From the IMG/VR virus record IMGVR_UViG_3300037258_000206, positions 1-27,868 of that record: a stretch of DNA of 27,868 nt; one strand, given 5' to 3'. Source of the stretch: a virus. The notes below the pieces were generated by a model. That model saw only the letters and a program-made list of their open reading frames with translations, was not told the origin of the DNA and ran no database searches. Of the stretch, positions 7,214 to 27,640 are shown piece after piece (the stretch's first letter is position 1; every line of letters begins with the position of its first letter). The translations under genes were made by a program, and so were the position numbers.

Positions 7214-8257
7214 CTACAGGTTGCTCAGGTCGTTGATCGGGCCGTACCAACCGTTGAGGCGCGGTTCGTCCGATGCGAACTGGAAGGCGATGACGTAACG
7301 GCTCGTCTTGGACAGCACGTTCGGGGTGTCAATCCACGGAACGTAGTCGAAGCCCTTGAACCCGAAGTAGTGCATCCGGGTGTGGTTCATGTTGAGGAAG
7401 TAGTAGTTGTAACCCAGATAGGTGTTGCCACCCGTGGCATACGTCGTCGCGGGGAAGTGGTTGTCGCCAACGACTTCGGCTCCGAGAAGATGCGGGTTGC
7501 CGAGATACGGGTTGGCCGAGTCGCCAGGGCTTACCCGAATCATCGAATCCATCGTGAACATATAGGACGACACGCCCTGCTGGTTCACAAAGATATGGGT
7601 CGGCGCGGCGTCACCGATGACGCAGGCCGTGTATTCCCGCAGCATCTGCGCCCGGGAGGTGTCGTTCGTCGCCGTACCGAGGCCGCTGGAAGCCAGCGAA
7701 ATCACGTTGCCCTGCCAGGTAGCAAGGCTGTTCGTCCCGGTTCGCGCGATGTTTCCGTAGACGTTGTAGAGTTGACCGTTGTCGGACGCCTCGATGACGC
7801 CGAGCGTCGGGTAGCCCGTGCCGGAGTTGGCGCCCTTCGTGAGCGAGGTGAGGTCGCCAGCGATGAGGTCCGAGAGGGAGGCGATACACGCCTGCACCTG
7901 GAGCGTGAGGTTGTCCACACGCATATTCGGGCCACGCACTAAGCGAAGCGTCTGATAGTCGATGGTGACCGCGGCCTGATACCACGACCAGGGGAACGCG
8001 GCAACCGAGAGGAGCGACTGCGGGCCGGATGCCAGCGTGTCGTACTGACCAAAGGATTGAGCGGTCTGGTTCTTCGCCGTCAAAAGCGGCAGGGCGAGGT
8101 ATCGGCCCTCTTCGTCACGCACCGCCGAGTCGTAAGCGACCTTCGGGACGCGCGCGGATTGGAAAACGTTGTCGGTAACGTATGGGGTAAAACTTTCGGC
8201 GAGAACGGCGGCTTCTTGGTCGTAGCCGCCCGCTGCTGGGCCTACTACTACAGCCAT
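7214..8257 (-). CDS. Major capsid protein (HK97-like fold expected)
   Basis: 347 residues starting MAVVVGPAAGGYDQEAAVLA. Position after the scaffold and before decoration-like genes, its length, and the alternating helix/strand composition fit a major head protein. A C-terminal half rich in Tyr, Asn and Phe (LGYNYYFLNMNHTRMHYFG) and a closing strand R-Y-V-I-A-F-Q-F are typical of capsid proteins of small podo-like phages. The ATG at 8257 has GAGG about 8 bases upstream. It is overlapped by the end of a possible 11-codon leader peptide. A candidate promoter (TTGACA at 8512-8517, minus strand) lies 230 bases upstream. I could not align it to a named family without a search. Confidence 0.7.
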   Translation of the reverse strand: MAVVVGPAAGGYDQEAAVLAESFTPYVTDNVFQSARVPKVAYDSAVRDEEGRYLALPLLTAKNQTAQSFGQYDTLASGPQSLLSVAAFPWSWYQAAVTIDYQTLRLVRGPNMRVDNLTLQVQACIASLSDLIAGDLTSLTKGANSGTGYPTLGVIEASDNGQLYNVYGNIARTGTNSLATWQGNVISLASSGLGTATNDTSRAQMLREYTACVIGDAAPTHIFVNQQGVSSYMFTMDSMIRVSPGDSANPYLGNPHLLGAEVVGDNHFPATTYATGGNTYLGYNYYFLNMNHTRMHYFGFKGFDYVPWIDTPNVLSKTSRYVIAFQFASDEPRLNGWYGPINDLSNL

Positions 8258-8321: not shown

Positions 8322-8489
8322 TTACGCCGGAGTGTCTGTCGCCTGACCTGGGCCGCCTTTCGGGGTTATCCGGTCCGGCATACGAGGTCCGAGCTTCACG
8401 GCTTCGGTTACCTGGCGGCGAGTGTCTGCGGGCGAGTGGGGCTTGCGCTTATCCACCGCGAGAAGCAGGTCGCCTCCGTTGACAGACAT
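8322..8489 (-). CDS. Hypothetical small protein upstream of the capsid gene (55 aa)
   Basis: ATG at 8489 with AAGG 9 bases upstream; TAA at 8324-8322. It starts MSVNGGDLLLAVDKRKPHSP and is Pro/Gly/Arg-rich at the end (RITPKGGPGQATDTPA), probably disordered. It lies on the late strand between the inserted plus-strand glycosyltransferase gene and the capsid gene, filling an otherwise empty gap. No family recognised. The SD and the continuous late-strand arrangement support it. Confidence 0.5.
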   Translation of the reverse strand: MSVNGGDLLLAVDKRKPHSPADTRRQVTEAVKLGPRMPDRITPKGGPGQATDTPA

Positions 8490-8517
8490 TGTGCGTTACC
8501 TTGCAGGCGGCTGTCAA
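8488..8517 (-). promoter_or_regulatory. Candidate late-strand promoter for the capsid gene
   Basis: A consensus TTGACA (plus-strand TGTCAA at 8512-8517) is followed after 18 bases by CACAAT (4 of 6 to TATAAT). Transcription would start near 8481, inside the 55-aa gene, and serve the major capsid gene. The same TTGACAG is present in inverted orientation at 8479-8485, giving a 7-bp inverted repeat 25 bases apart. Prediction only. Confidence 0.3.
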
Positions 8518-8529
8518 GCGTCGTACTAT
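8501..8529 (+). promoter_or_regulatory. Candidate leaderless promoter of the glycosyltransferase gene
   Basis: TTGCAG (8501-8506) and TACTAT (8524-8529) are exactly 17 bases apart. Only 6 bases separate the -10 from the ATG at 8536, so transcription would begin at or next to the start codon. No SD precedes that ATG. The same geometry recurs at the GTG starts at 24433 and (minus) 22900. The -35 match is weak. Confidence 0.45.
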
Positions 8530-8535
8530 CAACGC

Positions 8536-9585
8536 ATGAGAATCCTGGTTGGTACAGGCGACCCGCTCGGCACGCAAGGAACGCATTGGTGGCGACAAGT
8601 TATGCCGCTCACGCGCCTGGGCGGCGAGCATACCGTCCTCTTCACCGACGGCCAACCTCGGGAGTTCTTCCGTAGCGCCGACCTGGTTTTTCTCATTCGC
8701 GTGAGTATGCCAGCGACCATCGAACTTGTGCGGGCGCTCCGCGAAAGCGGGCCTCCCGTGGTTATGGACTTTGACGACAACCTCCACTCAATGCACGCCG
8801 ACAATGAGGCAACCCGCCTCTATAGCAACCACAAGTCGGGGACACGCATCTTCGAGGAGGCGTTGACTCTCGCCAACGTCGTGACGGCTTCTACCGAGCG
8901 GCTACGCACACAATATTATCCGTTCCGCAAGGATATTCAGGTCTGCCCCAACTTCATGCCGAGCGACATTTTCGACCGTCTTGCCCCAAAGCGCATCGAC
9001 GGTCTGCCAAAGCGCACCGGAGAGATTCGGGTCGGGTACGTCGGCGGCTCAAGCCACGGCGCGGACCTCGCGATGGCCTACACCCCGCTCCGCAAACTCT
9101 GCGCGCGGCACCCCAACGTCAAGCTCGTCTTTTTCGGGCAGCAACTACCCCCGCTCTACAAGCCCCTCCGGGACCGGATTGAATACCACGAATACGTCCT
9201 GCCGAAGGAGGGGGAACGGAACTACGAGTTCATGGACCGCTACTTTGAGCGGTTGCGGACCCTCGACCTTGACGTAGCGATAGCGCCCATCATCCCCTCG
9301 TCCTTCAACGCCGCGAAGTCCTACCTCAAGGCGCTGGAGTACGGTTCGTGCGGCTACCCGGTGGTTGCCAGCAGTTTCGGGCCTTATCGTGAGTACGCGA
9401 AAATGGGCGGCCCGATTGTGACCGCCTTTGATGAGGGCGAATGGCTCCGCAACTTATCGCGGCTAGTGGAGGATGCGGAGGCGCGGCGCGACCTTGCGGA
9501 GCGCAACGCCACCTTCATCCGCGAGCGATGCTCGACTAATCCTTGGCCGCGAGTGCTGGAGTCTTTGACGCTTTTACCGGCTTAA
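8536..9585 (+). CDS. GT-B glycosyltransferase (GT4-like)
   Basis: 349 residues from the ATG at 8536; a GTG far upstream would add an Arg-rich unnatural N-terminus. It opens with MRILVGTGDP, a Rossmann-type first strand. The second domain starts at IRVGYVGGSSHGAD (residues 164-177). The donor-site region near 250-280 reads APIIPSSFN, then KSYLKALEYG, then YPVVAS, matching the E-x7-E-type helix and strand of family GT4 glycosyltransferases. It probably transfers a sugar from a nucleotide donor to a phage or host surface molecule. It lies on the opposite strand to all its structural neighbours and overlaps the convergent gene by 50 bases. It has its own candidate promoter, so it behaves as a self-contained accessory gene. 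Confidence 0.8.
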   Translation: MRILVGTGDPLGTQGTHWWRQVMPLTRLGGEHTVLFTDGQPREFFRSADLVFLIRVSMPATIELVRALRESGPPVVMDFDDNLHSMHADNEATRLYSNHKSGTRIFEEALTLANVVTASTERLRTQYYPFRKDIQVCPNFMPSDIFDRLAPKRIDGLPKRTGEIRVGYVGGSSHGADLAMAYTPLRKLCARHPNVKLVFFGQQLPPLYKPLRDRIEYHEYVLPKEGERNYEFMDRYFERLRTLDLDVAIAPIIPSSFNAAKSYLKALEYGSCGYPVVASSFGPYREYAKMGGPIVTAFDEGEWLRNLSRLVEDAEARRDLAERNATFIRERCSTNPWPRVLESLTLLPA

Positions 9586-12217: not shown

Positions 12218-14278
12218 TCATGCTGCTTGGGAAGATTTCCTCTTTGAGCCAGGCTTCTTCGGCGTGCTTCCCGGATTAGTTTGGCCCGGAAGTTGCCCCG
12301 TTACGAGCCATGACTTTGTTGGGTCACCAGGGTTTTTCAATGCTTCCATGATTCTACGCTCAGTCGCAGAGGCAGAGTCTATTAAACCGAGTTCCTGAAG
12401 TTGCTTAAGAATATCGGGCATCGTTACCAGCGTGCGTCCAGTCGAAAGTAGATTCAAGGCCATGTTGAACTTTTGCGACGGCGTTCGCGATGAGCCTGGC
12501 TTGGACTCGACGCGAAGCGGCGCGGTGAAGTACGAGCCCAACAGCGGTATCGAATCCATTACGCCCGCGTCGTTCTTCAACTGCACCAGGTGCGGCGTCG
12601 TGTAGTAGCGCGTCATCAACTCCAAGAACTGCTCGCCGAGTTTGACCATCGCTTCCTCGATGCGATGCAGCGCGTCGTTGAAGCGCACGCCCGCGGCTTC
12701 CTGATACATCGACACCGTTTCCGCGCTCTGCTGGCCCTTGAACTTGGCCTGCCCGCTCGCAATTTCGTTGAGCCCGCTAATCTCGCGAATCTCGCCCTTA
12801 ACGTACTGCAAAAGCTGCATGACGTACTGCGGCATATCGGGTCCTGGCTCGCGTTTTCCGTAGCGCAAACTCTGCATCGTTTCGCGCTGAATCGCGCCGG
12901 GTGCGTTGGTTATATCCTCGTCGGCCATTTCGTCGCCAAGAGGCAGGCGCCATATAGGATTCGACGTGAGGTTCGCCGCGTCGTACATGAGCGAAATAAG
13001 GCGAATGTAGTATTCGTAGCCGTCCGCGATAAGGTCTATGTCGCTCAACCCCCAGAATTTCTCGGGGTCCGGGTACGCCTCAATCTCGATGAACGGGAAA
13101 TAGCCGAGCGGATTCATCCGGTCCTCGGCATTAAACTCCTCATCGACGGTGATTACGAGGCGACCCTCGGGGTAAAGCGGGTAGTCCACCTTGTGCTTGA
13201 TGACTTCGACCGCTTCGGCTTCCCACAGTATTCGCAGGCCGCCCCACAACTCCGCGTCGCGCACAACGTCAACGTAACTCTGCGGCCACTCATAAACGAC
13301 GTTGCCTTCGGTGATAATGCGCTTGACGACTTCGCTTGTGCCGTCCTCGTACTCAACGCGCTTCGTCTGCACGGCTGGCTCGCCAGCGACGGTGAACAGC
13401 ACCTTCTCAACGGGAATCTTCTTGCGTGGTCGCGTCCAGAACTCGCGCACCACGATGCCTGCCGTGCCGCCCGCATTGTCGGGTGGATTGGCCGTCGCGG
13501 CGAACGGCGGGTTGTTGACCGTTCCCCCGGTCGGCATTGCCATCTGCGTCGGAGGCGAAAGCACCTCGCCGCTCGTTTCGTCGTAACCGCCCTGCTCATT
13601 TCGCTTGGCGACAATCTTCTGTCGTAGCTTCGGCCACCGCGCGAACACCTTGTTTGGCGACTCGCGGTACTCGTACATCACCACTTCGGCGTCGTCTATG
13701 CAGGTCGCATTGTCATCGGCGTATACCTGAAGGCCGGACACGACCACCAGGTTCGCGCGGACCTCGCCGCCCGGGCCGTACATTTCCGGCACCAGGCGAA
13801 GGAAATTCTTTTTGACGACCCGCGACCCAAGGATGGCGTTGCGGACCTTCCCCTGCCAGAATCCCTCGGTATAGGCCTGGTCGAACGCCGCCGTCGCTAT
13901 GTCCGCGATGCGCTGGTCCTGGACGCGGTAGGCGCCGTAGGTTACCCGGGGGCGGTTGTCCGAGAGGATGGACGCCCATTGAATCGGGATGGTCGTGACG
14001 AGCGGGAACTTCTTGCCGAGCTTCCATTTCGGGCGGTTGCGCCACCAGGGCGTCCCACCGCGGTAGAGGCTGAGCGAGCGCGTCATCTCCTCGGTGACGG
14101 GCTGCTTCTCGCGCTTGAGGACGGCGCTCGCGTTCCGACACCACTCAATAAGCGGGTCGTTATCTTCGTCGCGGGAATCGTAGGCGGTCGAGCGGGTGAA
14201 CGGCGATGGGGGCGACTCAACAAGCCAACCGCCAGGGCTGGGCGCTAATCCCGAAATCGACGGCCCGAATACGCTCAC
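12218..14278 (-). CDS. Portal protein
   Basis: 686 residues, the length of podoviral portals (the P22 portal is of similar size). It starts at the GTG at 14278, which overlaps the upstream stop (GTGA). Typical portal stretches include an N-terminal region with W-W-R-N-R-P-K and IPIQWASILSDNRPRVTYG. A hydrophobic/acidic section follows (LGYFPFIEIEAYPDPEKFWG). Next is a helical section around SDIDLIADGYEYYIRLISLM, and then EIREISGLNEIASGQAKF, the conserved late-domain pattern in which S-G-x-x-x-x-x-x-G-Q recurs. It forms the dodecameric DNA channel at one capsid vertex and recruits the terminase. It lies downstream of the terminase genes and upstream of scaffold, the canonical order. Confidence 0.85.
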   Translation of the reverse strand: MSVFGPSISGLAPSPGGWLVESPPSPFTRSTAYDSRDEDNDPLIEWCRNASAVLKREKQPVTEEMTRSLSLYRGGTPWWRNRPKWKLGKKFPLVTTIPIQWASILSDNRPRVTYGAYRVQDQRIADIATAAFDQAYTEGFWQGKVRNAILGSRVVKKNFLRLVPEMYGPGGEVRANLVVVSGLQVYADDNATCIDDAEVVMYEYRESPNKVFARWPKLRQKIVAKRNEQGGYDETSGEVLSPPTQMAMPTGGTVNNPPFAATANPPDNAGGTAGIVVREFWTRPRKKIPVEKVLFTVAGEPAVQTKRVEYEDGTSEVVKRIITEGNVVYEWPQSYVDVVRDAELWGGLRILWEAEAVEVIKHKVDYPLYPEGRLVITVDEEFNAEDRMNPLGYFPFIEIEAYPDPEKFWGLSDIDLIADGYEYYIRLISLMYDAANLTSNPIWRLPLGDEMADEDITNAPGAIQRETMQSLRYGKREPGPDMPQYVMQLLQYVKGEIREISGLNEIASGQAKFKGQQSAETVSMYQEAAGVRFNDALHRIEEAMVKLGEQFLELMTRYYTTPHLVQLKNDAGVMDSIPLLGSYFTAPLRVESKPGSSRTPSQKFNMALNLLSTGRTLVTMPDILKQLQELGLIDSASATERRIMEALKNPGDPTKSWLVTGQLPGQTNPGSTPKKPGSKRKSSQAA

Positions 14279-14413: not shown

Positions 14414-15139
14414 TCATAAATCTCCCGGTCTGTCAGAAACTAGGCGGTGAGCTTTTTCTTCCACTTGGCGTGCCAACTTAGCGCGGCGATTCTCCGCCTG
14501 CTCCCTTTGGGCCTTCTCGACGGCCTTGGGCGTGCCGCGGTCCCAATGCACGAAGTCCCGCGTCAATTCGTTGTAGTGCTTGCGGCTGCGGATATGCGTC
14601 CCGCCCGTTACCCGCTGCCCGTCCACTATCCCCGTATCCTTGCCGGGTATCGTCACGGCGTAGCGGTCGTAGTGCGCGTCCCCGGGCTGCATCTGCACCG
14701 TCATCACCTTCTCGATGACTTCGGCATCGGCAAGCGGCGCCCGCCGCCGTCCGCAGGCGAGGTGGACGGATTGCCCTCCGTCCTTCGACCAATGCGCCTT
14801 CAGGCAGTCGCAAAACTGAGAGCGCGGCTCCTGGGATACGACCCAGCCGACAATCTCCATCCCCTGCATAACCGGGCGATACCGCTCCAGAATGTACGGC
14901 GTGACGACCCGCTCCCGAGAGTAGGGAACATCTATCTCCCCCTTGGCAACGGTGCGGTCCGGGGCGCACGCCTTGGCGACCTGCTCCGTGGTAAGCGGGG
15001 CGAGCTCCGCGCGCTGGCGCAACCCAACGCTGTACGGAAGCCCGCTCCGCTCTTTGAAGAACGATTCGGTTGTGAGGACGTTGCCGCCGGGACCGCGAGG
15101 GTCGAAGATACGGCGGATGAGGTCGCGCAACTTAGCCAT
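14414..15139 (-). CDS. Unknown protein with central Cys/His cluster (241 aa)
   Basis: ATG at 15139. It contains C110-x-C112, then H116, and VHLACG with H126 and C129, a possible zinc site in a region of otherwise ordinary sequence (YILERYRPVMQGMEIVGWVV before it). The C-terminal third is Arg/Lys/Glu-rich and helical. It lies between the GroES-like gene and the portal. No family recognised. A head-assembly or DNA-packaging accessory role is possible from context only. Confidence 0.6.
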   Translation of the reverse strand: MAKLRDLIRRIFDPRGPGGNVLTTESFFKERSGLPYSVGLRQRAELAPLTTEQVAKACAPDRTVAKGEIDVPYSRERVVTPYILERYRPVMQGMEIVGWVVSQEPRSQFCDCLKAHWSKDGGQSVHLACGRRRAPLADAEVIEKVMTVQMQPGDAHYDRYAVTIPGKDTGIVDGQRVTGGTHIRSRKHYNELTRDFVHWDRGTPKAVEKAQREQAENRRAKLARQVEEKAHRLVSDRPGDL

Positions 15140-15191
15140 CGCAGTCGTCAGAATCCTCGCCGTTTTCGTTGAATGGGTCGTTGCTATTCAT
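15132..15191 (-). CDS. Possible acidic mini-gene (19 aa)
   Basis: ATG at 15191 lies inside the last codons of the GroES-like gene. The TAA at 15134-15132 lies 8 bases inside the next gene. The peptide is MNSNDPFNENGEDSDDCDG, very acidic. No good SD. The double overlap suggests a coupling bridge between two genes 44 bases apart, but chance is a fair alternative. Confidence 0.25.
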   Translation of the reverse strand: MNSNDPFNENGEDSDDCDG

Positions 15192-15717
15192 CGCCGCTGT
15201 ACGCCGCCGCTTCCAGGGTTTCGCCGTTGAACGCAGGCAGAGCGGGCTCACCCACGCGCATCTTGACGCCCGTGAATACTCCGATAACATGACTTTGCGT
15301 AATGATGCGGTACTCTTTGCCGCGCAGAAATATTTTGCTTCCCGCGTACTTCGCGCCCATTACCACCATGCCGCGGTCGAACGGCATCGGAACCGAAGAG
15401 GGCGCCATCCAGACACCTTCGCCCGTTTCGTCGTCCACCATCACCAATCGTGCGGCCTCGTTCGTGACCTTCTCGGTAGTCTTAATGAGAATGGCCTGGT
15501 CGGGCGAATCGAGTCGGTGCCCGCTGCCCTTGTTGATGATGAGGCCAGCGAACCAGCCCATTTCGGTTTCCTTCGCTGCGTCATCGCTGCGGACAATCTC
15601 GATTCCGCTCGCTCGCGTTTCGTCAACCCACAACACTTCCAGCAATAGCCGGTCGCCGTGAGGGATGAGCGTAAGCGGGTCCTGCTCCTCAAGAGATACG
15701 ATACGTTGTTCTTCCAC
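15184..15717 (-). CDS. GroES-like co-chaperonin
   Basis: 177 residues from the GTG at 15717 with a perfect AGGAGG SD. Residues 18-65 follow the GroES order: L-x-P-x-G-D-R-L-L-L-E, then DETRASGIEI (mobile-loop approach), then a D-D-A-A-K-E-T turn, then MGWFAGLIINKGSG. Residues 116-148 match the GroES C-terminal part: RGMVVMGAKYAGSKIFLRGK, then EYRIITQSHVIGVF, compared with the Y-G-G-x-x-V-x-x-x-G-K-E-Y-L-I-x-x-x-x-D-I-L-A-V pattern. About 50 residues are inserted between these halves and about 28 extra follow. Phage T4 gp31 is a known precedent: it caps host GroEL to fold the capsid protein. Its place in the head operon suggests a similar role. Confidence 0.75.
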   Translation of the reverse strand: MEEQRIVSLEEQDPLTLIPHGDRLLLEVLWVDETRASGIEIVRSDDAAKETEMGWFAGLIINKGSGHRLDSPDQAILIKTTEKVTNEAARLVMVDDETGEGVWMAPSSVPMPFDRGMVVMGAKYAGSKIFLRGKEYRIITQSHVIGVFTGVKMRVGEPALPAFNGETLEAAAYSGDE

Positions 15718-15725
15718 TATTCCTC

Positions 15726-16286
15726 CTAGAGATTTGCAAGATCGAAAATCGTGGGGCTATGAATAGACTTTGCCTGCTTGTGCATATTGCAACTATGGCA
15801 CAGGGGTTGCAGATTAAGAGCATAGTTGCTTCCACCTCGCGCCAACGGAACCTTATGGTCTTTGGTTATCTTGTCGCGGCGCTTACAATACGCGCACTTA
15901 TTTCCATAAGCATCCAATATTTCTCGCCACTCTTTCGCCGTGTGTGAACCGACAGCACCCTTGCGTTTAGCCGTTTTTACTGAATAGTGATGAGCTGTTC
16001 GTTCAGGGTTTTTCTTTTTCCATTCCCTTCCACGCGCAAGGCACACCTCTCGATTTTCCCAATAGTAACGTCGTGCAGCGGCACATAACTTGTCCTTATT
16101 TTTAGCGCGCCACTTGGCGCCATACGCCAGAGAGTGTTCCTTGTTGTCCCGCCTGTACTTAGTACTTTTTTCTCGGGACAATTGAAGGTTAGCCCAGTAC
16201 CGCTCTTTTTGCCGTTCTCGGCATCTACGCTGCATTTCGTCGTAATACCCTTGCCCGTAGGTGGCAACCATTTCCGCCTTAGTCAT
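15726..16286 (-). CDS. HNH endonuclease inserted after the terminase gene
   Basis: 186 residues. Residues 1-115 are Arg/Lys/Tyr-rich and helical, with no named domain. Residues 118-172 form an HNH module: C131-x-x-C134, K-D-H144, then GGSNYALNLQ, C163-x-x-C166 and H169, i.e. a zinc-stabilised beta-beta-alpha-metal nuclease. Such genes are free-standing homing endonucleases common beside terminase and portal genes. The ATG at 16286 overlaps the terminase stop (ATGA). Codon use is more A/T-rich than its neighbours, a sign of recent arrival. Its last residues (FDLANL) echo the terminase end (PDIANL). Confidence 0.85.
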   Translation of the reverse strand: MTKAEMVATYGQGYYDEMQRRCRERQKERYWANLQLSREKSTKYRRDNKEHSLAYGAKWRAKNKDKLCAAARRYYWENREVCLARGREWKKKNPERTAHHYSVKTAKRKGAVGSHTAKEWREILDAYGNKCAYCKRRDKITKDHKVPLARGGSNYALNLQPLCHSCNMHKQAKSIHSPTIFDLANL

Positions 16287-18283
16287 AAATTAGCAATGTC
16301 CGGTTCATTGCGTCGGCTACGCCTTGATGACGAGCCTCGCCTAAATGCGGCGAAGTTGTCAACCTTTTCTGCCACGGGTTCTTCTTTCTTGCGCCCGCGC
16401 AGTTTTGATAAGCCTGTCCACGGGTCGCCCGCAATCGCGACTGCAATCGCCAGGGCGTCGTAGTGGTCGTCGTGCCCGCTGTCGGCCTTAATCGCTCCCG
16501 TTGCCTGGCGTCGCACCGTCTGCAACTCGTTGAGCGTCGGTATGTCGCGAATCGTTATCAACGGCTCGGGGCGGTTCGTCATCGGGTCGCGGTGGCAAAT
16601 CAACTCCACCATCGCGTCGTCCATAATCGGGCGCGTCTTTTGATTCGTGTCCCAACCCGGATATTTCGTCGGCTCCGGGAAGTCTGAGTCCAATCGCTTC
16701 CACTCGTAGTAGTTTCGCATCCCGGAGTCGATGCACTCGCGGATGATGCGGAAGCCCGAACCCTGCAACTCAATCCCCGTGTACGCATGGTTGTACCAGC
16801 GATAGAGGTACATCAACTGTTCGCGGAATGTGTGCTCGTCAACGCGCGCCTCATACGTCGCAACCACGGAGTAGTCGCTCAGTCGAAGCACCTGCGCCAC
16901 CCACGCATCGGCGTCCTTGCTTGCGTAACGAACGCCGGTATCCACGCCCATCGTGTATTTCTCGCCCTGTTGCGGCGGCGCGTACAGACGCATCTCTTGC
17001 CAATCACTATGAAATGTAGAATCGAGATAAATGCCGCGAATCGAATCCTCGCGCAGAATCCCTTTGTACGGCGTATCGCGTCCCTGCTTCACCACAACGT
17101 CTAAGCACTCGCGGTCAAACGGCGACTTCTGATAGTTGACGAACGACCCTGCGATTGTGTCGGGGAACTCCTGGCGGAAGATGAGCAGCTTCAACTCTTG
17201 CGACGGCTGCTTAATGGAGTCGATCTTCCATCGGCGCCAATAGAGGCGGAACGCGGATACGCCTTGCTCGGCATATTGCATCTCTTCCTCACAACTATAT
17301 TTCGGATTCTTCCCGAGGTCCGACATTAACTCGTCAAGGTCGGCCTTGCGGATGCGCGGCAACTCTCCACGCGGGTTCTCGTTGCGCGTCGTATATTCGT
17401 CGTGGATGCACCAACGCGAGAACGCGGGAACCCACGTCTTGAGATTGTCGGGCTGGCCGTACTTTCCGGCGAATATTTCCGCGGCAGTTACGTTCACCAT
17501 CGTTTCGAGGCGCTTAACCCAGCGCGGATTCTCCTCCGCCGCTTCCATCATCATCGGGTAGTAGTCGTCGTCAAAACCGTTGGCGGTCGTGTCGATGATG
17601 ACCGCCGATTCTTTTCGCAGGCCCATGCCGGTGAGCAAGCCCGAGTTTACCTCTTCTTTACGTGCGTCATCCATGAAGGCGTACTCGGATATGATGACGA
17701 GGTGCGGCGTCGTGCCACGCATACCGGACGGAACGGTTATCTGCAACTCCGAGTTAAGACCCGCGTTGTAGATACGCTCGGCGGCGTTAGGGTTCTCGAA
17801 CACGATATGCTTCATGTTCTGAATCCGGCGCATCGGTTGCATATGCGGCGGCAACCCGTTTACCATCGTACCGAGAATCGTCGCCTTCGCCGCGGCTACG
17901 TCCTCGTCGTTCACCAAGACGATCGACTTGCGGTTCGGGTGAAGAATGTTGTGCAACGCCTCGCCGAGGCACCAAGAGGTCCACCCGATTTGACGCGGCT
18001 TATCCTCGACCACGCGCTGCGGATACCCCTGTCGGCGTTGCGACTCGATACAGACGCTAAGAATCGCCTGCCCTGTGAACGGCTCCATCGAAACAAGGTT
18101 GCCGTCCTTGTCGGCAATCTTGAAGTAGTTGGTTATCGCAAATGGTGCGCTGCCAAGGAACTGCTGCGTTTCGGCCAGACGCCAATGGTGAACTTCGTGC
18201 TGCTCGGGTGCGTCACGCCCAAACTTGGAGCGGAAGAACTCGCCCGTCGAATAGAGTTCGTCCGGGCGAAAGAGTCCACTCAC
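16283..18283 (-). CDS. terL: Terminase large subunit (packaging ATPase and nuclease)
   Basis: 666 residues from the GTG at 18283 (GTGA overlap with the upstream gene). The ATPase domain has a Walker A-like KPRQIGWTS at about 95-103, Walker B HLVIISE at 194-200 (catalytic E200) and a coupling motif DTTANG at 231-236. The nuclease domain has GVDTG (D448), GIELQGSG (E505) and GHDDHYDA (D605/D606/D609), the three acidic clusters of the RNase H-like fold. It pumps genomic DNA through the portal and cuts concatemers. The C-terminal tail is Arg/Ser-rich. It is followed by the inserted HNH gene. Confidence 0.92.
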   Translation of the reverse strand: MSGLFRPDELYSTGEFFRSKFGRDAPEQHEVHHWRLAETQQFLGSAPFAITNYFKIADKDGNLVSMEPFTGQAILSVCIESQRRQGYPQRVVEDKPRQIGWTSWCLGEALHNILHPNRKSIVLVNDEDVAAAKATILGTMVNGLPPHMQPMRRIQNMKHIVFENPNAAERIYNAGLNSELQITVPSGMRGTTPHLVIISEYAFMDDARKEEVNSGLLTGMGLRKESAVIIDTTANGFDDDYYPMMMEAAEENPRWVKRLETMVNVTAAEIFAGKYGQPDNLKTWVPAFSRWCIHDEYTTRNENPRGELPRIRKADLDELMSDLGKNPKYSCEEEMQYAEQGVSAFRLYWRRWKIDSIKQPSQELKLLIFRQEFPDTIAGSFVNYQKSPFDRECLDVVVKQGRDTPYKGILREDSIRGIYLDSTFHSDWQEMRLYAPPQQGEKYTMGVDTGVRYASKDADAWVAQVLRLSDYSVVATYEARVDEHTFREQLMYLYRWYNHAYTGIELQGSGFRIIRECIDSGMRNYYEWKRLDSDFPEPTKYPGWDTNQKTRPIMDDAMVELICHRDPMTNRPEPLITIRDIPTLNELQTVRRQATGAIKADSGHDDHYDALAIAVAIAGDPWTGLSKLRGRKKEEPVAEKVDNFAAFRRGSSSRRSRRNEPDIANL

Positions 18284-18849
18284 GTTTTGCTTGTCGCAAT
18301 CCGAACGTACTGTTCGAAGCTGCCAAGGTCGGGGCCGCCGTCACCAATCTCGCGAGCCTGCTTTATCGCATTGAGCGAGGCGGCGGGGTTGTCGCTGTAC
18401 GCCCACCGTGCGAGGATGCGCGCCACGGCGGCGTCGCCGAGGTGGCGTCGGCGAAGGTCGTCACCGAGGCTACTTGTGGGAACGCCCGCCTGCACGTCGG
18501 CGATAAGGTCTGCACGACGCGCGACGGCATCTTCTCGCGACACGCCATACACCTCAACCAACGCACCAACTTCGTCGCCTTTATTCTCTGCAAGGAAGTC
18601 AAGGAAGTGGTCGTAACGCGCTTGACGCATCCGGCCATGAAGGCGGCGTTGCTCCTCATCTTCCTTCTTGCCTTTCTTGGTGGGCGTTTTCTCTTCGGCG
18701 GCGGGCACGGTCCCGGCGAGCGTGCGGTACGGGTCAACGCGGTGCTCATGCGGATGGCGCGTGCCAACCGGAACCGGCATCGGCAATAACTGCCCCATCT
18801 TCTCAACGTCGGGCGTCGGCACGGACTCCGGTTTACGTTTGCGCGGCAT
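18280..18849 (-). CDS. Putative terminase small subunit
   Basis: 189 residues directly upstream of terL with a GTGA overlap. The N-terminus is basic and disordered (MPRKRKPESVPTPDVEKMGQ, followed by a Lys/Glu-rich linker). Residues about 70-150 are helical (YDHFLDFLAENKGDEVGALV, YGVSREDAVARRADLIADVQ) and could include a helix-turn-helix. The C-terminus (SLNAIKQAREIGDGG) may bind terL. Small subunits recognise the packaging site. The call rests mainly on position and helix pattern. The ATG at 18849 lacks a clear SD and overlaps the upstream gene by 17 bases. Confidence 0.6.
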   Translation of the reverse strand: MPRKRKPESVPTPDVEKMGQLLPMPVPVGTRHPHEHRVDPYRTLAGTVPAAEEKTPTKKGKKEDEEQRRLHGRMRQARYDHFLDFLAENKGDEVGALVEVYGVSREDAVARRADLIADVQAGVPTSSLGDDLRRRHLGDAAVARILARWAYSDNPAASLNAIKQAREIGDGGPDLGSFEQYVRIATSKT

Positions 18850-25771: not shown

Positions 25772-25897
25772 ATGACTATTTGTAAGGCTTGCGGAAAATA
25801 CCGCGTCTACGCCTTAATGCATCCAGACAAAATGTTGTGGCAAGAAACCTGCTTAATTTGCGTATATGCGGGGCAGTCTGCGAGCGATAGAACATGA
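25772..25897 (+). CDS. Zinc-ribbon mini-protein (41 aa)
   Basis: ATG at 25772, AGGA SD with spacing 7; TGA overlaps the next ATG. MTICKACGKYRVYALMHPDK, then MLWQETCLICVYAGQSASDR holds C4-x-x-C7 and C27-x-x-C30, a complete two-knuckle zinc ribbon. It is the first gene after the HNH-AP2 insertion. Like the other Cys-rich mini-proteins here it may bind DNA, RNA or a host protein. Confidence 0.65.
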   Translation: MTICKACGKYRVYALMHPDKMLWQETCLICVYAGQSASDRT

Positions 25898-26685
25898 TTG
25901 AGATAGAGCAACGCATCCGCCACGCGGCAACCACGGCCGACCTCCGAGCCGCCGCTTCCGAACTGTGGAAGAAGCACGCGCCATCCCTCTTCGACCCGCA
26001 CGACGAGCGCCACGGGTTGCGCGTAAGCGATGCGGGCGCTTGCGTTCGCGCGCTCTGGAACGAGGTTCACGGCGTCACCGAAAAGGCGTTCCCCGCCGAC
26101 GTGCAACTCTTCAACCTGGACGACGGCACAATGGGCGGCGCGTGGTTCGCGTGTTTGCTCGCGGCGTCGCTCGAAGCCGATGAATACTGGGTTGACTTAG
26201 AGCCCGAGGTTGAGCACGACGGAACGCCCGGCCATATCGACCTTTACTTTGCGTGGCTATGCGTTGATGGCGTGCCCAGCGTAACGCCTGGCTACGAACC
26301 TGGCGTCGTAGAGTTTAAGCGCACGAACTGGAGCGGCACGCTCGACCACCCCGAGAAGTCGAAGCGGTATCACATACTGCAAGCCGCGAAGTACGCAGCC
26401 GCGAAGGGCGTCGAGGATTTCGCCGTCGTTACGGTCGGCCCCGCAGCACGCGGCGCGAAGATGCGCGCGGACTGGTTTAAGACGGGCGATTGGCAGCACG
26501 CGGTAATCGGCGAATGGATGCGCCTCTCTGCCGCGCTTGGCGACAACGAGCCCGTAGGCGACCCGGACGCGCCCTTTAGGTGCAAAGGTTGCCCCGTCAT
26601 AAAGTGCGACCGGAACCCCGCCTTCGTAGATACCACGCTACTCGCTAAACTGGAGGAATCTTATGCACAACGAAACGCCGGGTAG
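25894..26685 (+). CDS. Cas4/RecB-like PD-(D/E)XK nuclease with Fe-S cysteines
   Basis: 263 residues. Nuclease motifs in order are GHID (D116), VVEFKR (E140, K142) and ILQAAKYA (Q163, Y167). Four cysteines in the Cas4/AddB arrangement, one N-terminal (C50 in AGACVRA) and three C-terminal (C230, C233, C238 in RCKGCPVIKC), suggest a 4Fe-4S cluster. In Cas4-type enzymes this module gives 5' or 3' ssDNA exonuclease activity. No Cas1/Cas2 or repeat array is present. It overlaps the RecT-like gene by 23 bases, so a role as the exonuclease partner in phage recombination is most likely. Start: ATGA overlap at 25894. Confidence 0.8.
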   Translation: MIEIEQRIRHAATTADLRAAASELWKKHAPSLFDPHDERHGLRVSDAGACVRALWNEVHGVTEKAFPADVQLFNLDDGTMGGAWFACLLAASLEADEYWVDLEPEVEHDGTPGHIDLYFAWLCVDGVPSVTPGYEPGVVEFKRTNWSGTLDHPEKSKRYHILQAAKYAAAKGVEDFAVVTVGPAARGAKMRADWFKTGDWQHAVIGEWMRLSAALGDNEPVGDPDAPFRCKGCPVIKCDRNPAFVDTTLLAKLEESYAQRNAG

Positions 26686-27640
26686 CGCAATCGTTATTCG
26701 ACGCGACGACCCGCCTCGCAGCCCGATTCTCGCCGAGGCAAAACCGCTTCGCTACTCGCTGCCGGAACTCAAGCAGGTCGGCGAGATTATGTTTGCGAGC
26801 GGTATGTTCCGCGACCTCAAATCCGTGCAGCAGGCTATGGTGAAACTGCTTGCGGGCGCGGAACTCGGCTACGGCCCGTTTCGGTCGCTCGAAGCGTTCC
26901 ACGTTATCGAAGGGAAGCCGTCCGAAACGGCGGCGGAGATTAGCGCCCGCATCAAAGCGAGCGCAAAATACGACTACAACCACTTTTGGATAAACGCCGC
27001 GCGCGAACGACTGGACCCGATTAAGGACGCCTCTAGCGAGGTTTTCGGCTGCGTTATCGTTGTCGAAGAGATGAAGGGAACCTCCTGGAAGGAGCGCGAG
27101 CCTGTCGTATTTACGCTAGACGACGCCAAGACGGCGGGCCTGCTCGGGAAAGACAACTGGCGCAAGTATTCCCGCGATATGCTTTTCGCCCGCGCCATCT
27201 CTGCGGCAGGTCGCCAGCATTGCGCGGACCTGTTCGGCGGACCCGCGTACACCCCCGACGACCTCGGCGCGAACGTCGTGATCGACGCCGCCGGCAAAGA
27301 GTCGTTAGCGCCCGCGCGGCAGCGATCTGTCGAAGCGAAGCAGACGCTCGAACACGCGGAGCCCGAGGTTTCGCTTGAGGAGCGCATGACGAAGGGGCGA
27401 CAAAGCATCGCCATCTTCTGCCGTAACCGCGGCATCACGGATGAAAGGCGGCACCGCGTTTCCAGCGTGCTGTTCGGTCGCAACTCCACTAAGGAGCTTA
27501 ACCTCGCCGAGCTTCAAACGCTCTCGCGCATCCTCCAGGCATACGCCAAGGCTGAGATGCAGAACGAGCCGGAAGAATCGTTCGAGGCTTGGGCGACCTG
27601 GCAACGCGACGAAGCGCAGATAGTGGAGGGCGCAGTATGA
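26663..27640 (+). CDS. RecT-like single-strand annealing protein
   Basis: 325 residues from the ATG at 26663 with a GGAGG SD. The core matches RecT-family patterns: VQQAMVKLLAGAELGYGPF, then EAFHVIEGKPSETAAEIS, then a strand section, then FTLDDAKTAGLLGKDNWRKY, then DMLFARAISAAGR and a G-G-P-A-Y-T-P-D-D end. The C-terminal third is helical and variable. These proteins bind and anneal ssDNA made by a partner nuclease, here the overlapping upstream Cas4/RecB-like gene. Without a search I cannot exclude a related annealing family (Redbeta or Erf), but the D-D-A...W...ML..RA pattern favours RecT. Confidence 0.7.
   Translation: MHNETPGSAIVIRRDDPPRSPILAEAKPLRYSLPELKQVGEIMFASGMFRDLKSVQQAMVKLLAGAELGYGPFRSLEAFHVIEGKPSETAAEISARIKASAKYDYNHFWINAARERLDPIKDASSEVFGCVIVVEEMKGTSWKEREPVVFTLDDAKTAGLLGKDNWRKYSRDMLFARAISAAGRQHCADLFGGPAYTPDDLGANVVIDAAGKESLAPARQRSVEAKQTLEHAEPEVSLEERMTKGRQSIAIFCRNRGITDERRHRVSSVLFGRNSTKELNLAELQTLSRILQAYAKAEMQNEPEESFEAWATWQRDEAQIVEGAV

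Follow-up and report, generated by a model that had tools for sequence, protein, structure and literature searches.

Phages that encode their own co-chaperonin are already known. In bacteriophage T4, gp31 is described as replacing GroES on GroEL and folding the capsid protein gp23, a task in which GroES cannot substitute for it (PMC3012670). According to the account in PMC6318259, the mobile loop of gp31 has 22 residues compared with 16 in GroES, and gp31 is presented there as having no roof loops. The Cpn10(1) and Cpn10(2) proteins of Arabidopsis are also described as roofless (PMC4242682). The sequence-only reading from which this analysis started regarded phage co-chaperonins as known but not common. 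They are in fact not rare: in the description given in PMC9599517, the HTVC023P-type pelagiphages have 13 core genes, co-chaperonin GroES among them, the genes shared by the Pervagoviridae include cpn10 (PMC8776804), and CHAB-I-5 phages are reported with an annotated co-chaperonin as well (PMC10149686). A co-chaperonin gene near the genes for the terminase large subunit (TerL) and the portal is likewise known, in Xanthomonas phage PBR31. In our judgement, the role of the GroES roof has been poorly separated from that of the rest of the lid.

The window, that is, the whole stretch of DNA that was analysed, comprises 27,868 bases and is a virus record of IMG/VR. A GroES-like gene had been placed at 15184-15717, and this position is correct, the strand being minus: the minus frame is open over the full length, and the plus frame is broken by an internal stop. 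The co-chaperonin open reading frame is real. The gene and its parts are as follows.

15184-15717, minus strand: co-chaperonin gene of the Cpn10/GroES type, 177 aa, GTG start at 15717 and stop at 15184
15722-15727, minus strand: Shine-Dalgarno-like AGGAGG, read directly from the sequence, 4 bases before the co-chaperonin GTG
15559-15618, minus strand: mobile-loop segment (residues 34-53), exceeding that of E. coli GroES by about 6 residues, with I-E-I for the I-V-L of GroES and mostly low model confidence
15394-15513, minus strand: enlarged roof hairpin (residues 69-108); the stretch separating G66 from V109 has 42 residues compared with 8 in GroES, with three predicted strands and a DDET turn
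15187-15270, minus strand: C-terminal tail (residues 150-177), variable and of low model confidence

The window protein matches Pfam Cpn10 (PF00166) with 28.4 bits (E=1.8e-6) where the curated cut-off is 21.1; the strongest single piece of a six-frame scan reached 19.2 bits for Cpn10, under the Pfam cut-off. In PHROGs the match is co-chaperonin GroES with E=9e-4. Nine GroES models of NCBIfam match with E down to 1.3e-9, and the protein stays under every one of their cut-offs, the best score being 37.9 bits compared with 96 for GroES proper (PRK00364). Since it lies above the Pfam Cpn10 cut-off but far below those for GroES in NCBIfam, we classify it as a divergent member of the Cpn10 family and not as a GroES ortholog. 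Its identity to E. coli GroES in their alignment is 22%.

Relatives were collected from viral contigs by searches with TerL and portal and then with alignments of both; L-numbers denote these contigs or loci. When six relatives were given to the Pfam search, Cpn10 matched four of them, with E as low as 1.5e-10. Over the 15 distinct family members, PHROG 3188 (co-chaperonin GroES) was matched by 10 and Pfam Cpn10 was found at E<=0.1 in 9, so Pfam overlooks part of one co-chaperonin clade, namely the 6 members without such a match. When the profile of the 15-member family was compared with a profile of eight GroES sequences, the score was 97.6% with E 3e-12, and the seven most divergent members alone gave 96.7% with E 4e-10; because of these two scores, the divergent members are considered Cpn10 by kinship. 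Also, the family profile matched the sequences of solved Cpn10 structures with E=5e-9. Both conserved halves of GroES, which the sequence-only reading had recognised, are present in the window protein: the first contains 'IPHGDR' (18-23), the loop 'ASGIEIVRSDD' and 'GSGH' (64-67), and the second contains 'VPMPF' (109-113) and 'KEYRIITQSHVIGVF'. The Pfam and profile-profile E values given above show that they are not due to chance. The profile search proposed in that reading as a check thus came out on the side of Cpn10, and the structure search had the same outcome, with no different beta fold favoured.

In the predicted structures, the Cpn10 beta-barrel fold is clear despite the moderate model confidence. 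An AlphaFold2 model of the window protein was made from eight sequences (pLDDT 63.7, pTM 0.52) and a second one was headed by L008 (pLDDT 58.5, pTM 0.50). When searched against the PDB with Foldseek, ranks 1-33 of the window model were all Cpn10 chains, T4 gp31 among them, and ranks 1-34 of the second model were Cpn10. VIA-align gave Z 12.1 for Thermus Cpn10 (1wnr; rmsd 2.9, 82 residues), Z 10.3 for GroES of 1aon (rmsd 2.8, 87 residues) and Z 8.8 for T4 gp31 (rmsd 4.9, 90 residues). Among the first 50 BFVD matches, the named ones were viral co-chaperonins or chaperonins.

Roof lengths were compared over the segment equivalent to G46-K55 of E. coli GroES, which we take to be the roof hairpin. 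It has 8 residues in all 12 proteins compared, E. coli GroES and 11 named phage GroES, a set that favours ordinary GroES, the 11 coming from 90 phage records found with an E. coli GroES query. The same segment has 42 residues in the window protein, 44 in L008, 45 in L010 and 52 in L070, and in 15 of 15 distinct family proteins the roof is longer than that of GroES, by 14 to 45 residues. Three strands lie within it in both models. An insertion of 50 residues had been proposed from the sequence, and the measured excess is 34 residues in the roof (42 compared with 8) and 6 in the mobile-loop segment, where V31-G64 has 33 residues and V17-G44 of E. coli GroES has 27. The accompanying idea of a modified cap is strengthened, since the insertion coincides exactly with the roof hairpin. 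For the five closest members, identity averages 60% over the roof; the core strands of the first half reach 80-82%, the second half 73% and the tail 49%. The L008-L006 pair gives a pN of 0.11 and a pS of 0.56 for the roof segment. From these values and the 60% identity, the roof is under purifying selection and is no free linker.

The clade-wide enlarged roof is an element new to us, and no paper on an enlarged phage co-chaperonin roof was found in our literature search. A single-protein scan for further viral co-chaperonins gave one relative; among the top 50 BFVD matches, 13 have at least 125 aa (up to 183), and other enlarged roofs may occur among the BFVD proteins. Because of these long matches and the bias of the comparison set towards ordinary GroES, we do not claim that the roof is unique, nor do we claim that it is unpublished.

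The low-confidence stretches of the window model comprise most of residues 36-51 in the mobile loop and 154-177 in the tail. Low pLDDT across most of the mobile loop fits a loop that would be disordered when free. The tail is about 28 residues long, as first proposed. In the divergent seven (for example L067 1498-2043 and L018 5947-6504), the mobile-loop segment exceeds that of GroES by 16-24 residues in the three members measured, and it carries a conserved NPxDPxAxPxVExRG-like pattern that is unusual for a mobile loop. When the co-chaperonin genes of L008 (6884-7528) and L011 (8328-8927) are compared, the first 53 or so codons are identical in DNA and the rest has a pS of 0.25-0.6, which points to a recombination breakpoint inside the gene.

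The head-gene setting noted in the sequence-only reading is borne out, with portal, terminase and major capsid genes neighbouring the co-chaperonin gene.

18280-18849, minus strand: 189-aa gene upstream of TerL, no informative family match; its position suggests a small terminase
16283-18283, minus strand: TerL, 666 aa (Pfam Terminase_6N, 24.9 bits compared with 22; PHROGs)
15726-16286, minus strand: HNH/endonuclease VII-like gene between TerL and co-chaperonin, at other sites in relatives
14414-15139, minus strand: conserved 241-aa gene, function unassigned, between co-chaperonin and portal
12218-14278, minus strand: portal protein (SU10/P22 type), 686 aa
10035-11480, minus strand: possible head scaffolding protein (weak match, PHROG 3927, E=3e-4)
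7214-8257, minus strand: major capsid protein, 347 aa (PHROG 9953, E=1e-16; NCBIfam capsid_maj_Podo, 79.1 bits compared with 80)

Some other features of the neighbourhood were observed. Between the scaffold and major capsid genes, a glycosyltransferase gene runs on the other strand (8422-9585 in the window); it is kept in L008 (13034-14182) and L009 (14324-15472). Further away, the plus strand at 25894-27640 carries a Cas4-like exonuclease gene and a RecT-like annealing gene, a weak and a clear match in PHROGs, respectively. HNH genes related to that of the window occur at varying sites among the head genes, in L005 (5856-6473), L006 (2281-2823), L009 (16678-17256) and twice in L059 (2905-4110 and 6292-7173); such shifting sites resemble the behaviour of free-standing homing endonucleases.

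The co-chaperonin was found in 16 of the 23 related uncultured contigs (9/11 and 7/12), a count from which the near-identical L002 was left out. The seven records without it are mostly short (4.4-15 kb). One record of 40 kb stops inside TerL, before the expected place, and L007 begins within the 241-aa gene; for the others, the ends of the contigs and the positions of the matches suggest that most, if not all, of the seven stop near the place where the co-chaperonin would be expected. Two gene orders were observed. In the first, the 189-aa gene, TerL, co-chaperonin, 241-aa gene and portal all have the same direction (window, L008, L009, L010, L011, L041, L056 and L057). In the second, the 189-aa gene and the co-chaperonin are followed by TerL in the opposite direction, the 241-aa gene and the portal (L004, L005, L043, L048, L051, L059 and L065), and the co-chaperonins of these records are the divergent seven. 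L006 lacks the TerL end. The co-chaperonin stays in the packaging and head region in every record that has it, adjoining the 189-aa gene or TerL, and the portal is downstream wherever the locus extends that far. On the other hand, TerL is opposite to the portal and head genes in L004, L005, L043, L048, L051, L059, L063 and L065 and codirectional in the rest of the clade, an arrangement that indicates an inversion or relocation of TerL within the clade.

Beyond the clade, tblastn of the window protein and those of L008 and L005 against 50,697 phage records gave only weak matches in place of close relatives among named phages. With the window protein three records were obtained, two labelled Listeria phage and one faecal Bacteriophage sp. 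The two Listeria phage matches were rejected as relatives, as they look like plain GroES and are suspected to be bacterial sequence; a Manatee Spring piece from the L008 search (E=0.5) was also rejected, being without family support. Two scans of bacterial genome contigs, with A1 and the portal as queries, gave no relatives. By TerL, the closest named phages have 24% identity or less. Pfam Cpn10 was found in none of five phage records (four of the five matched by TerL, and MW202795); the A9 profile also had no match in these five, a result that is uninformative because the profile missed the co-chaperonins of PBR31 and T4 too.

We consider it likely that the gene product is a phage-borne co-chaperonin of Cpn10 type, which would replace host GroES on host GroEL for the folding of phage proteins; in the simplest reading it is a lid for host GroEL produced together with the virion proteins, and the window protein most likely caps host GroEL. 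The profile and fold matches support this, as do the low-confidence mobile loop, the selection on the roof, the constant place in the packaging and head region, the lack of a GroEL gene in all 23 records and the T4 precedent. Several points count against it. The protein is far under the GroES cut-offs of NCBIfam, 6 of the 15 members have no Pfam Cpn10 match at E<=0.1, and incomplete contigs may conceal a GroEL gene of the phage. The model quality is only moderate, being worst in the roof and the tail. Also, the place of the GroEL-binding tripeptide holds I-E-I in the window protein and I-E-L, I-V-V or L-I-P in the closest relatives, so that three of the five closest members carry Glu in the middle; the L-I-P is that of L010.

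The same tripeptide, which is not strictly kept, would also suit a protein of Cpn10 fold that has been recruited into the virion or its assembly (as an accessory of the head, the portal or packaging), has lost the capping of GroEL and uses the roof and tail, both of them additions, as binding parts. The tight setting of the gene among the TerL, portal and capsid genes agrees with such a role, as does the count of GroEL genes, 0 in 23 records (0/11 and 0/12; the records may be incomplete), though the host supplies a GroEL. We nevertheless regard this as unlikely. All through the core the Cpn10 pattern is retained, with a long low-confidence loop where the mobile loop belongs; the phage Cpn10 of tested function, T4 gp31, acts on GroEL as described in PMC3012670; and PBR31 has a co-chaperonin of normal length at a similar place. 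The altered loop and roof would also allow the protein to be a decoy or regulator that binds host GroEL but blocks or redirects host folding rather than serving phage clients, which we judge very improbable, as the location in the packaging and head cluster in every carrier record suits virion production better than early takeover. We give practically no weight to a different beta fold with superficial likeness to GroES, such as the GroES-like domain found in MDR alcohol dehydrogenases: MDR oxidoreductases do come next in the fold lists and the MDR reductases are the best non-Cpn10 fold, but at Z 7.1 and below they trail the Cpn10 chains by up to 5 Z units, Pfam, PHROGs and NCBIfam give nothing but Cpn10/GroES with E under 0.05, and the profile-profile alignment spans both halves.

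If the protein is a co-chaperonin acting on host GroEL, seven copies would form a dome, whose disordered mobile loops, six residues longer than in GroES, would bind host GroEL at the apical domains of its ring. This dome would take over from host GroES during virion production, and the closed chamber would then fold at least one protein of the phage, from its head, portal or terminase. With 42 instead of 8 residues per subunit, the roof would make a large beta-rich crown over the central opening, which may either close and deepen the dome or give a surface for a phage partner. As the capsid protein of 347 aa is small enough for the normal GroEL-GroES chamber, the client may be a different protein and the enlargement may have a reason other than size; the portal and TerL, at 686 and 666 aa, would be large for a chamber. 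We suggest, tentatively and with more doubt than belief, that in this podovirus clade the roof has become a conserved beta-rich crown of 22 to 53 residues per subunit that closes the lid or recruits a phage partner, linking folding inside the chamber of the host with the assembly of the head or with packaging, and that this makes a third kind of lid alongside GroES with its small roof and gp31 with none. If this is true and the protein is heptameric, the crown would comprise about 150-370 residues per ring. The enlargement may alter what the chamber folds or what docks on the lid. The natural series of roofs, from +14 to +45 residues within one phage clade, offers ready variants for studying how the size of the chamber, its closure and the choice of clients depend on the lid.

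When compared with GroES and Cpn10 in general, the window protein shares both halves, the fold, a loop at the place of the mobile loop and a hairpin at the place of the roof; it differs in the larger roof, the longer mobile loop, an extra N-terminal arm and the 28-residue tail. The HTVC023P-type pelagiphages, the Pervagoviridae and the CHAB-I-5 phages have a phage co-chaperonin in common with it, a likeness drawn from their published descriptions. Phage PBR31 (MT119766) is similar in that its co-chaperonin gene is just upstream of TerL and portal, with one small gene between, and in its mobile-loop segment of 32 residues compared with 27 in GroES. However, the PBR31 protein has an ordinary 8-residue roof, 107 aa and a strong Pfam match (64.7 bits). 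T4 gp31, to which the sequence-only reading had likened the protein, is also phage-encoded and has the same fold, and its gene is away from the head genes in T4, unlike that of the window. The likeness holds for the mobile loop, which by the published description of gp31 is about six residues longer in both, but it does not extend to the roof. As gp31 is described as roofless (PMC6318259) and the roof here is enlarged, the window protein falls outside the gp31 type, and its cap appears to be modified in the opposite way.
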